A DNA stretch of 45,312 bases, taken from Clostridia bacterium (GTDB lineage Bacteria; Bacillota; Clostridia; Oscillospirales; CAG-272). Numbering within the stretch: position 1 is the first letter of the stretch; each line of letters starts with the position of its first letter. The position numbers and the translations under genes are program-made. The notes under the pieces were generated by a model. The model did not search any database and was not told the DNA's origin. It worked only from the letters and a program-made list of their open reading frames with translations. The stretch lies in contig JAFTJE010000006.1 of NCBI GenBank assembly GCA_017456545.1, positions 1 to 45,312 on the forward strand, read 5' to 3'. Positions 28,409-31,343 of the stretch are shown here, one piece after another.

Positions 28409-29482
28409 ATGGAACAATACAATGTAATAGATTTGTTTTCAGGCGTTGGGGGGTTAAGCTATGGCTTTTCAAGATTTTCTCAATTCAATATTATTGCAGC
28501 AAATGAGATAGAAAAAGATATTTCAATAGCATACAAAATGAACCACCCAAAGGTGGAAATGTTAAATTGTGATATAAATAGTTTAACAGAAGAAGTTTTA
28601 TCAAAAGTATTAAATGGTCGTTCAGTAGACATTGTCATTGGTGGACCTCCCTGTCAATCTTATTCAACGCTTGGAAAAAGGCAAATGGATGATAGGGCAA
28701 ATCTATTTATGCAATATAAAAGGGTTCTTAAAATTTTACAACCAAAAGCATTTGTTTTTGAAAATGTAGTTGGAATTTTAAGTATGGATAAAGGCAGACT
28801 CTTTGCTCAAGTTCAAAAGGAATTTGAAGAACTTGGGTATAAATTGAAGCACAAGGTTTTGGATGCAGTTCAATTTGGCGTACCACAGCATAGAGAACGA
28901 GTTATTTTAGTTGGATTTAAAGAAAAAAATGGTTTTAATTATCCAGAGCCTACGCATGGTGAAGGATTAAAACCTTATGTAACTCTGAAGGATGCAATTG
29001 GAGATTTGCCTATATTGGAGAGTGGAGAACACAAAAATTATTATTTGAAAGGTATTTCGAATGAATTTCTCGATTTTGTTAGAAAGAACTCTTCCAACTT
29101 TGTTGAAGAACATTCTGCACCCAAAAATGGTGATCATCTTATAAAAATAATGAAAGCACTAAAAGATGGTCAATCAAAAAATGATCTTCCTGAAGACATT
29201 CGCCCTAAAAGTGGTTATGGTAATACTTATGCAAAATTGTGGTGGAACCAACCGTCTACAACAATAACGAGAAATTTCGCTTGTCCTTCATCCTCAAGAT
29301 GTATTCATCCAAGGGATTCAAGGGCTATGTCTATTCGTGAAGGTGCAAGACTACAAAGCTTTCCGGATAACTACAAGTTTTACGGCTCCGATAGCATTAA
29401 ACGATTGGAAATTGGAAACGCAGTACCACCGTTACTTTCTACAGTCATTGCTAAACAAATGTTAGAGGCATTAAACAAATAG
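28409..29482 (+). CDS. DNA (cytosine-5-)-methyltransferase of a type II system
   Basis: The 357-residue enzyme transfers a methyl group from S-adenosylmethionine to a cytosine in a specific DNA site. Motif I is DLFSGVGGLSYGF (8-20), motif IV is GGPPCQS with the catalytic Cys82, motif VI is ENV (118-120), and motif VIII is QFGVPQHRERV. The target-recognition region lies at about 180-290, and motifs IX and X are REGARLQSFP and IGNAVPPLLS. It has AAGGAG upstream. Sequence is visibly AT-richer than the host genes. It faces the restriction gene (convergent), protecting DNA from that enzyme. The target site cannot be read. Confidence 0.96.
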   Translation: MEQYNVIDLFSGVGGLSYGFSRFSQFNIIAANEIEKDISIAYKMNHPKVEMLNCDINSLTEEVLSKVLNGRSVDIVIGGPPCQSYSTLGKRQMDDRANLFMQYKRVLKILQPKAFVFENVVGILSMDKGRLFAQVQKEFEELGYKLKHKVLDAVQFGVPQHRERVILVGFKEKNGFNYPEPTHGEGLKPYVTLKDAIGDLPILESGEHKNYYLKGISNEFLDFVRKNSSNFVEEHSAPKNGDHLIKIMKALKDGQSKNDLPEDIRPKSGYGNTYAKLWWNQPSTTITRNFACPSSSRCIHPRDSRAMSIREGARLQSFPDNYKFYGSDSIKRLEIGNAVPPLLSTVIAKQMLEALNK

Positions 29483-29516
29483 TAAAGCTACCGAATTTTC
29501 GGTAGCTTTACTTTTA
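29481..29516 (+). terminator. Terminator of the methyltransferase gene
   Basis: GTAAAGCTACCGAA (29481-29494) pairs perfectly with TTCGGTAGCTTTAC (29497-29510), 14 base pairs, followed by TTTTAT. Bases 29517-29681 hold nothing else I can support. Confidence 0.85.
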
Positions 29517-29681
29517 TACCATAATTTTTTTATGTGATTAACACCTGTAAAATGGCATTGCATTTTTTTAATCGTTTCCAATCTACAGTGGGTATTTGTA
29601 AACATTAGCTTTTTTTTGTTTTGTTAGAAAACCCTTAGATATTTGAAAAAACTTTTCGACCTTTCAACATGCTATGTATAT

Positions 29682-30524
29682 TTATTCGCTTAATAATCTA
29701 AACAACTTATCGTAGTCATGATGAAATTGTAACTGACCTTGATGCCATTGAACAAAACCGAAAGGCAACTGAATAGTGGTGCCACCATAGGAAGAACCAT
29801 AGTAGGTTTCATCTTGTGCAGCATTTTTAACAGCATTGCAAACATCTTCAATGAAGAAAATCTCATCTACATCATTTTCTCCAAGCAGGTTTATATACCA
29901 AATAAAGTTAGACCACTCACTTTTATTTAACACAGCTCCCATAGAGAAGGACAATTTTGTAATTTCATAAGCATAGTCAGAAAACCAATTTAACAAGTCA
30001 TAGTATAGGTTTTCATCATAATTTTTAAGAGTAGTTGCATTCAAGCTTTTGTGTCGAATTTGCAAATCAAAGTTTTTTTGGTTAGTCCTATCTGCATATT
30101 CTTCGATAATTTCAACGGCATCTTCTGCAGCTGCCCAAAATAAATTAATTGCTCTTTTTACAGATTCAGGTATTTTTGTATCAAACTGCATTTCAAAAGT
30201 ATTAATGAACAGGCCAGCCCTAACGAAATAAACTTGTCCACTTAAACTTTTTTTAATGGACACATTTATCATTTCGTTATTGCTTAAATATACCTTCAAA
30301 TCTGTTTTAGATTTGGTTTTACGACCATTTATACTAGGTACATTGGTTTCGTGCAGTCCACCTATACTGGTTTCCCTTATGTTTTCGTTTGAACGACAAA
30401 CTCTATCTAAGAAGCTTTGTCTAAATTCCTTGTTAGTATCTAATTGTTCTTTAACCAAGTTTTCGTTTTTGTGTCCTGATAGTTTAGCGTGCTTCCAACC
30501 GGTAGCTCTATTTCTATGTTCCAT
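29682..30524 (-). CDS. Probable type II restriction endonuclease
   Basis: The 280-residue protein is the likely partner nuclease of the methyltransferase. The region RKTKSKTDLKVYLSNNEMIN then VSIKKS looks like a PD-(D/E)XK core, with Asp75 and the S-x-K strand at 89-91. The GWKHAKLSGHKNE head is a pattern I associate with restriction enzymes, but I cannot name the family. It starts two bases after the controller gene, so the two are one transcript. Base use is AT-rich, like the rest of the island. The call rests on context plus motif. Confidence 0.78.
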   Translation of the reverse strand: MEHRNRATGWKHAKLSGHKNENLVKEQLDTNKEFRQSFLDRVCRSNENIRETSIGGLHETNVPSINGRKTKSKTDLKVYLSNNEMINVSIKKSLSGQVYFVRAGLFINTFEMQFDTKIPESVKRAINLFWAAAEDAVEIIEEYADRTNQKNFDLQIRHKSLNATTLKNYDENLYYDLLNWFSDYAYEITKLSFSMGAVLNKSEWSNFIWYINLLGENDVDEIFFIEDVCNAVKNAAQDETYYGSSYGGTTIQLPFGFVQWHQGQLQFHHDYDKLFRLLSE

Positions 30525-30788: not shown

Positions 30789-30955
30789 CACACAATAAGT
30801 AACCTCAGTATTTTAATCTTATTAGTTAAAGATATATGATTACTTACACCATTCATAATGTTGGAGAAAACTTTTACTTAGGCGGTGATCGGCTCTGATT
30901 GCCCTTGGCAAGCATTCACTACCGACCCTTCAAGCCCTGTCAAATAATGTTCAAA
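30789..30955. other. Non-coding stretch at the right side of the island
   Basis: No gene is seen. The frame ending at TAA 30945-30947 stays open for 21 codons (ending in TDPSSPVK) and lies just before a good terminator, so it may be the tail of a gene cut by the island. This is speculation. Confidence 0.4.
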
Positions 30956-30957
30956 AC

Positions 30958-30985
30958 AAAAAGGTGGACTTGCCACCTTTTTTTG
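30958..30985 (+). terminator. Intrinsic terminator
   Basis: AAAGGTGG (30960-30967) pairs with CCACCTTT (30973-30980), then T residues. No intact gene reads into it from the left. Confidence 0.85.
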
Positions 30986-31056
30986 TTTTGTGAAGAGGCG
31001 ATAAAAAAGATATTTTGGCTTTTTAACCGATGGATTTGAACTCTTGTGCTTCTAAT

Positions 31057-31223
31057 CACGGCAGAGCCGTGTATATCATTGATGTGGAGCATCGTATATC
31101 ATCAACGGCTTGCCGTTGTATATCATCATTGCGAAAGAGGATACAGCTTATGGCTGATGATATACACCTTCGGTGATGAGATACACGCTTATGCGTGATG
31201 ATATGCCATTGCTTTCGCAATGG
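31057..31223. repeat. Array of small hairpins joined by TATATCAT / ATGATATA
   Basis: Left half: hairpins CACGGC-GCCGTG (31057-31071), GATG-CATC (31081-31093) and CAACGGC-GCCGTTG (31103-31118), each followed by TATATCAT (31072, 31095, 31119). Right half: hairpins CAGC-GCTG (31144-31156), CACC-GGTG (31165-31175), CACGC-GCGTG (31184-31197) and CCATTGC-GCAATGG (31206-31223), separated by ATGATATA or one-base variants (31157, 31176, 31198). The two linker words are reverse complements, so the array has a turning point near 31127-31143. Stem sequences all differ. No coding role is seen. Confidence 0.9.
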
Positions 31224-31226
31224 ATA

Positions 31227-31260
31227 AAAAATTCGACAAGTCGAAACTTGTCGAATTTTT
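31227..31260 (-). terminator. Terminator of tRNA-Leu
   Basis: AAAAATTCGACAAG (31227-31240) pairs perfectly with CTTGTCGAATTTTT (31247-31260) over 14 bases around a six-base loop. Confidence 0.92.
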
Positions 31261-31343
31261 GGTGCGGATGACAGGACTTGAACCTGCACATCGGAGATAC
31301 CAGATCCTAAGTCTGGCGCGTCTGCCAATTCCGCCACATCCGC
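31260..31343 (-). tRNA. tRNA-Leu (anticodon TAG)
   Basis: The minus strand gives a class II tRNA: acceptor GCGGATG/CATCCGC, anticodon stem CCAGA/TCTGG with loop CTTAGGA (anticodon TAG), a long variable arm typical of Leu, T loop TTCAAGT, discriminator A and encoded CCA. Confidence 0.95.

Follow-up and report, generated by a model that had tools for sequence, protein, structure and literature searches.

A two-way hairpin array behind a tRNA-Leu terminator belongs to a widespread element family tied to IVP (PF05635) genes

What kind of sequence keeps its linkers constant and changes its hairpins, while each hairpin stays paired with itself and the whole turns round in the middle? The question is raised by an array on the minus strand of the window, by which we mean the whole stretch of 45,312 nucleotides that was analysed. 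Our main finding is that the array belongs to a defined, widespread and terminator-associated family of elements tied to IVP genes. The reading that we favour, with a probability of roughly 0.7, is that the window array represents a selfish element of the PF05635 (IVP) kind that lacks its gene, and that its linkers are words cognate to IVP.

The element as defined here is 171 nt long (31055-31225, minus strand), with the tRNA-Leu terminator immediately before it. Read from the tRNA-Leu side, the order is terminator hairpin, T-tract, ATC, H1, three units of linker and hairpin, a centre, three units of inverse linker and hairpin, and GAT:

31260 to 31343, minus strand: tRNA-Leu gene (anticodon TAG) preceding the element (ARAGORN; Rfam tRNA, 59.9 bits)
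31227 to 31260, minus strand: intrinsic terminator hairpin (two 15-nt arms, 100% complementary) and T-tract; the element begins right after the T-tract
31206 to 31225, minus strand: H1, that is ATC and the first hairpin, start of the element (the covariance-model match begins at 31225)
31197 to 31205, minus strand: left linker L1, CATATCATC
31184 to 31197, minus strand: hairpin 1, CACGCATAAGCGTG
31175 to 31183, minus strand: left linker L2, TATCTCATC
31165 to 31175, minus strand: hairpin 2, CACCGAAGGTG
31156 to 31164, minus strand: left linker L3, TATATCATC
31144 to 31156, minus strand: hairpin 3, CAGCCATAAGCTG
31127 to 31137, minus strand: centre, CTTTCGCAATG, exact reverse complement of the 5' arm and loop of H1
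31119 to 31127, minus strand: right linker R1, GATGATATA
31103 to 31118, minus strand: hairpin 4, CAACGGCAAGCCGTTG
31095 to 31103, minus strand: right linker R2, GATGATATA
31081 to 31093, minus strand: hairpin 5, GATGCTCCACATC
31072 to 31080, minus strand: right linker R3, AATGATATA
31055 to 31071, minus strand: hairpin 6, CACGGCTCTGCCGTG, and terminal GAT, end of the element
31000 to 31052, minus strand: T-arm-like 3' flank (AGAGTTCAAATCC...AAAATATCTTTTTT), common to up to 16 of 60 copies

The original prediction, made from the letters of the window, had placed hairpins and linkers correctly to within two bases, with seven hairpins over 31055-31225, and its statement that the array lies directly behind a tRNA-Leu terminator is borne out by ARAGORN and Rfam. 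On the plus strand, the first three linkers read TATATCAT and the last three ATGATATA or near it, the deviations being GATGAGATA at 31175-31183 and GATGATATG at 31197-31205; the window copy thus displays an inverted set of three TATATCATC-like and three GATGATATA-like words. Its two-way word score is 36, a value as high in none of 500 dinucleotide shuffles (maximum 24). Chance or a simple repeat as origin of the array is ruled out by these shuffles and by a control in which the linker pattern was searched for backwards.

In that search, the strict three-linker pattern of TATATCAT was found in 15 of 57 relatives and the backwards control in 0 of 57, and spacers at the relatives' strict-pattern loci have stems of at least 5 in 38 of 60 cases, against 6 of 60 in shuffles. 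A covariance model built from 16 elements, with the window copy (162 bits) among its rows, detects copies in 25 of the 29 genomes of the genus, and the host genome itself holds further ones. The search of own and related genomes that had been proposed therefore found the array to be neither absent from relatives nor alone in its genome. At least 117 stretches of genome contigs fit a loose pattern; among the matches listed, 52 of them lack a paired array by our filter, and many of these resemble chance AT-rich matches. Records with paired arrays, again among the matches listed, are mostly named Clostridia or Oscillospiraceae bacterium, and many come from animal gut. The loose pattern is also fitted by 64 stretches of viral contigs, and a phage origin was rejected, since viral spacers have stems of at least 5 in 7 of 107 cases and shuffles likewise in 7 of 107.

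The first four linker types that were seen, namely TATATCATC (window type), ATGATATA, TGAAATA (one locus) and GTATGGAATC, have an identical full layout, and in all four the right-half word is the reverse complement of the left-half word. Most full copies inspected consist of H1, three hairpins, centre and three hairpins, some halves having four or five, and this fixed layout recurs in several families of the order. Two ideas had been put forward for constant linkers with changing but self-paired stems. A family of structured targets is supported, whereas a general rule of open-ended copying growth finds no support in the common 3+3 layout; longer arrays that run one way do occur (L067, L063, L082, L096 and L026). 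In two copies of one relative (G020:C8:46970-47144 and G020:C40:10194-10373), a palindrome, GGGGTTCCCCGAAGCGAGCTTG..., is inserted in the H1 loop, a repeat nested in a repeat.

The position of the window copy next to a stable RNA gene is common among its relatives. In the 60 best loci by E-value (at most 1.3e-23; one row per locus, better strand), which include mutually dependent loci of related species, a T-tract stands directly before the element start in 57, a terminator in the form of a perfect hairpin of at least 7 bp in 52, and a tRNA or tmRNA gene ends at most 80 nt upstream on the same strand in 30; a duplicated tRNA 3' end precedes several of the remaining loci. The association with T-tracts and terminators is not built in, because the flanks lie outside the covariance model. 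The terminator hairpin of the window (TCGACAAGTTTCGACTTGTCGA, 31227-31260) recurs before many copies, so that it may in some cases be carried along as part of the mobile unit; moreover, near-identical copies differ in how far they share the terminator stretch (36-38 of 40 nt alike in some, 17 of 40 in others), which makes the left boundary of the element provisional. The only two tRNA-Leu orthologues without the element that could be placed (in G020 and G018) also have a different terminator, and neither a target-site duplication nor a clean empty site was obtained among the tRNA-Leu orthologues placed. On the 3' side, a loose regular expression classed 17 of the 60 flanks as promoter-like, 18 as T-arm-like and 25 as neither, several being visibly misfiled. 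Copies with the T-arm-like flank (GAGTTCAAGTCC...AAAATATCTTTTTT; up to 16 of 60, including that of the window) are gene-less and lie behind different tRNA genes, and other copies have a promoter and a gene in its place. A second small repeat family, with a core like GAATGACAGTCC..GGACTGTCAGATCCGCG in several cases, was observed between the tRNA gene and a duplicated tRNA 3' end upstream of elements at G010:C41, G008:C5, G011:C15, G020:C26, G020:C11 and G000:C30; it looks as if it inserted at tRNA 3' ends with duplication.

The middle of the array, 31127-31143, had been taken for a broken hairpin. Nothing there is damaged: it is the centre, in which the 5' arm and loop of H1 return as the reverse complement. 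In the 16 elements, 92.3% of the cells between H1 and centre are paired and 25 cells are changed on both sides, values that none of 500 shuffles attained; as many pair types occurred in 3 of the 500 and as many pairs changed on both sides (5) in 27, three of the five measures beating all 500. Sliding the partner register lowers pairing to 47% or less. The centre corresponds to H1 over at least 9 nt in 47 of the 60 best loci, and a strict automatic test was positive for 28 of 81 regions upstream of IVP genes, for 0 of 11 in a clade without arrays and for none when each upstream region was shuffled once. H1 and centre covary, and they may form an alternative long-range pairing. A ladder of paired linkers had its own appeal, as left and right words change together between types, and RNAalifold does pair the linkers, but those columns hardly vary. 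In a fixed ladder register, linker deviations within elements give 67 mismatches against 64-69 in other registers (21 of 60 elements), and the ladder was rejected because these deviations are uncompensated.

Which gene accompanies the element? A small IVP gene lies directly downstream of at least 7 of the 60 best copies, and it matches PF05635 (IVP, the 23S rRNA intervening sequence protein; 4.6e-19) and TIGR02436 (four helix bundle protein; 8.2e-21). PF05635 is present in 27 of 29 genomes of the genus and in 58 of 117 sampled across the order; the 14 control genomes all lack it. Of 99 places fetched from the genus and order matches, 92 reached far enough upstream to be scored. In the 300 nt before the IVP gene, 58 of these 92 show a two-way word array, as do 1 of 460 dinucleotide shuffles and 4 of 296 window stretches; among the 58, about 7 (words TTCACT, CTTTTC and CATAAT) have the look of simple repeats and not of hairpin arrays, and several IVP genes scored zero only through word decay or because a single half survived. 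Inverse words in the two halves are partly required by the array score, and the shuffles show that they go beyond chance. The original prediction had advised looking for a co-occurring protein family, and PF05635, found with related arrays in this proportion, is such a family.

The array words vary between IVP loci (for example AGTGATGT, AGTGATATT, AATGAAG, AGCTAAATT, GTGAAATA and GTATGGAATC). On a tree built from 95 IVPs, for 56 of which a word was available, linker class changes 32 times against 54.7 in shuffles, and 0 of 200 shuffles were as low; the tree has few columns, near-copies help its clustering statistic, and TTCACT (5 loci), a palindromic simple repeat, favours both this statistic and the count of 58 of 92. 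The same word class is met with a related protein in different families of the order, as for GTGATGT in L343, L384 and L385, and AATGAAG in L345, L386 and L393. Judged from sequence, linker words are shown to follow the IVP subfamily. No IVP gene is present in the window, and under a strict filter, among the matches listed, only 6 of 65 paired TATATCAT arrays on genome contigs have one within 450 nt, a lower bound because IVP genes show up at other such loci. Most copies of the TATATCAT linker type are gene-less.

Evidence on mobility comes from near-identical pairs of elements within genomes (98.9%, 97.7% and 96.1%). In the host genome, contig C19 ends in an element behind tRNA-His and contig C30 in one behind a tRNA-Arg 3' remnant; the two elements share 98.9% identity, but only 17 of the 40 bases before them agree. 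Contigs C39 and C40 both begin inside the same element, C39 running on into an IVP gene and C40 into other sequence, and their identity stops at the IVP start codon; the assembly does not say which of the C19 and C30 ends joins which of these starts. Gene-bearing and gene-less forms of near-identical copies are thus shown to coexist in the host genome, and the window copy is a diverged gene-less one (77% identity to the C39 element). Near-identical copies at different sites, a property of MITEs and other mobile repeats, support the view that the element is mobile. They also bear on the idea of an immobile leader, in which the array would control the downstream promoter or IVP gene, or insulate two transcription units, with IVP as an autoregulator. 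Such a role would suit the order terminator, array, promoter and gene, seen in part of the copies (the 17 of 60 that the loose expression called promoter-like). We consider it unlikely, given that near-identical copies lie behind unrelated genes in one genome, that no promoter is seen downstream of gene-less copies such as that of the window, and that the element is absent at the tRNA-Leu gene of two placeable relatives.

One named RNA resembles the array. Gut-1 (Rfam RF01706), described in passages of a 2010 paper as a likely noncoding RNA reported from the human gut only (PMC2864571), scored above threshold in 6 of 15 loci given to Rfam, and its matches, where placeable, cover one half of ATGATATA-type and TGAAATA-type arrays. 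In three loci of the GTGAAAT linker class it also precedes the IVP gene (L392, 72.5 bits; L398, 68.9 bits; L400, 65.3 bits), with opposite-strand matches in L336 and L400; 4 of the 20 IVP loci given match in all. Like the element, the Gut-1 model has H1 and three hairpins linked through a word that stays constant, here GUGAAAU, but it represents one half only, without centre, inverse half or gene. The earlier remark that no named element has this structure was therefore nearly right: the window copy, at 20.2 bits, stays below the 50-bit gathering threshold, yet Gut-1 spans one of the two halves in related elements.

Could the family then consist of noncoding RNA genes, whose transcripts fold into hairpins and work as sRNAs? 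Rfam types Gut-1 as 'Gene; sRNA', related arrays exceed its threshold, and the fold z-scores of 31050-31230 are strong (minus strand, -5.1; plus strand, -4.0). However, G-T and A-C mismatches stand at 52:45 in array hairpins versus 132:65 in terminator-like hairpins (Fisher p 0.03), and their near equality in the arrays gives no sign of strand-specific RNA selection, which is thus left unsupported; a smaller run agrees (22:30 and 9:6, with terminators at 4:4, too few as a control). Moreover, the elements begin where transcription should end, Gut-1 spans only half of them, and stems vary freely among copies, so that we find an sRNA improbable. Together with the uncompensated linkers, the mismatches fit, though they do not prove, words that may be recognised as sequence in both orientations, with hairpins pairing at the DNA level, better than they fit a rigid paired RNA.

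Modelled with AlphaFold2 from 8 sequences, a C-type IVP forms a four-helix bundle (pLDDT 93.1). Searched with Foldseek, it matches 2rld (TM 0.86; also found by sequence at 2.2e-17) and 2gsc, structures titled 'unknown function' and 'conserved hypothetical', then Avd of a Bordetella phage DGR (4dwl; TM 0.76, E 0.008) and Avd in the DGR ribonucleoprotein (8ub7), the TM (query) values for Avd being 0.73-0.79. Homology of IVP and Avd is noted in passages of an earlier paper (PMC10053308). The fold is thus shared with a DGR protein, but RVT_1, the only DGR part sought, is absent from most genomes of the genus: it occurs in 3 of 29 and was not found in the host genome (90.6% complete). Group IIC introns insert behind terminators, and RNA-mediated copying by a reverse transcriptase acting in trans, in a similar manner, would explain why the elements have the same target geometry (terminator hairpin and T-tract, in one orientation) and why IVP has the fold of Avd, which belongs to a reverse-transcriptase complex; that a genome with near-identical copies has yielded no RVT_1 makes this explanation decidedly doubtful. 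Y1_Tnp is present in 12 of the 29 genus genomes, the copy in the host genome being interrupted by stop codons, and neither enzyme is consistent enough in its presence to be retained as the partner. Ordinary REP/BIME-like palindromes mobilised by a Y1 (RAYT/IS200-type) transposase would likewise be palindromic, intergenic and multi-copy, but are very improbable here, as the elements occur in 25 of 29 genomes and their stems vary around a constant linker, the opposite of REPs, in which stems are constant and linkers vary.

The selfish element tied to IVP remains the reading that we favour. Its full form would carry a PF05635 gene, encoding a four-helix bundle of the Avd fold, and the linker word would be what the cognate IVP recognises, displayed as an inverted 3+3 set spaced by hairpins. 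IVP would read this word and may serve in spreading the element, while gene-less copies would either spread by IVP supplied from another copy or be relics of full copies.

Do IVP genes elsewhere carry such words? In the phylum, PF05635 is present in 35 of 199 genomes drawn, and only 3 of 27 IVP loci reach the two-way score, so two-way arrays were rejected as a general feature of IVP. A strong 7-nt direct repeat lies upstream in 15 of 26 IVP loci outside the order and in 13 of 13 non-array IVP loci of the order, and 0 of 39 shuffles have a comparable one; other ORFs of these loci and of the window have a strong upstream repeat in 14 of 149 cases, 10 of period 7, in a control that is not clean, as the majority of 12 examples inspected belong to these IVP loci themselves. 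Downstream of the gene, the repeat returns as its reverse complement in 14 of the 15 loci outside the order and in 12 of the 13 within it. With such repeats and inverse sets at IVP genes of the phylum, the window array looks like a hairpin-spaced version of general IVP word sets. Six loci were given to Rfam, five of them preselected for flanks like those of stable RNAs: 23S rRNA accounts for three, RNase P RNA for two and neither for one, and in the five the IVP domain is inside the RNA gene. In L458 and L460, the RNase P RNA gene contains the IVP gene, which is preceded by 7-nt words and followed by their reverse complement. Heptameric repeats also precede the S23 gene of the Coxiella intervening sequence, according to passages of PMC4990558. 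23S rRNA intervening sequences, a class cut out by RNase III and not religated, thus resemble the array elements, where they carry an S23/IVP gene, in their protein family, in their position in or at stable RNA genes, and in having word repeats together with the reverse complement. The array elements differ in lying behind a terminator rather than inside the RNA, in spacing their words by hairpins, and in having both word sets upstream of the gene, or no gene at all; indeed, Rfam gave no rRNA match in the window.

A broader view is tentative, and we would put it at somewhat less than even odds: PF05635 and Avd-fold proteins may be word-specific nucleic-acid binders, each subfamily with its own word of about 7 nt, and IVP plus inverted words may form a complete, hitherto unrecognised class of minimal selfish elements, whose homing targets would be stable RNA genes (23S, RNase P RNA and tRNA terminators) and which would use host enzymes only. 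Gut-1, rRNA intervening sequences and two-way arrays would then be three faces of one class. Among the matches listed from the open-access literature, we found nothing joining TATATCAT arrays, REP-like words of Clostridia, Gut-1, PF05635/TIGR02436/S23 and heptameric repeats. Such a view would offer a common and testable explanation for two orphans, the IVP four-helix-bundle family and Gut-1 RNA, and would make the subfamily-specific words a candidate recognition code. It would also tie rRNA intervening sequences to a larger group of elements, and show that spreading behind tRNA terminators is feasible with at most one small gene and without an obvious transposase.

Two further regions of the window lie close to the element. 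At 28409-30524, a cytosine methyltransferase-like ORF and an ORF on the opposite strand, a candidate restriction enzyme, were read by eye, and no link between them and the array was seen in reading the window. The plus strand of 30879-30990, which has no Rfam match at the gathering threshold, ends in a terminator-like hairpin of its own and converges on the element; it is possibly a small RNA.
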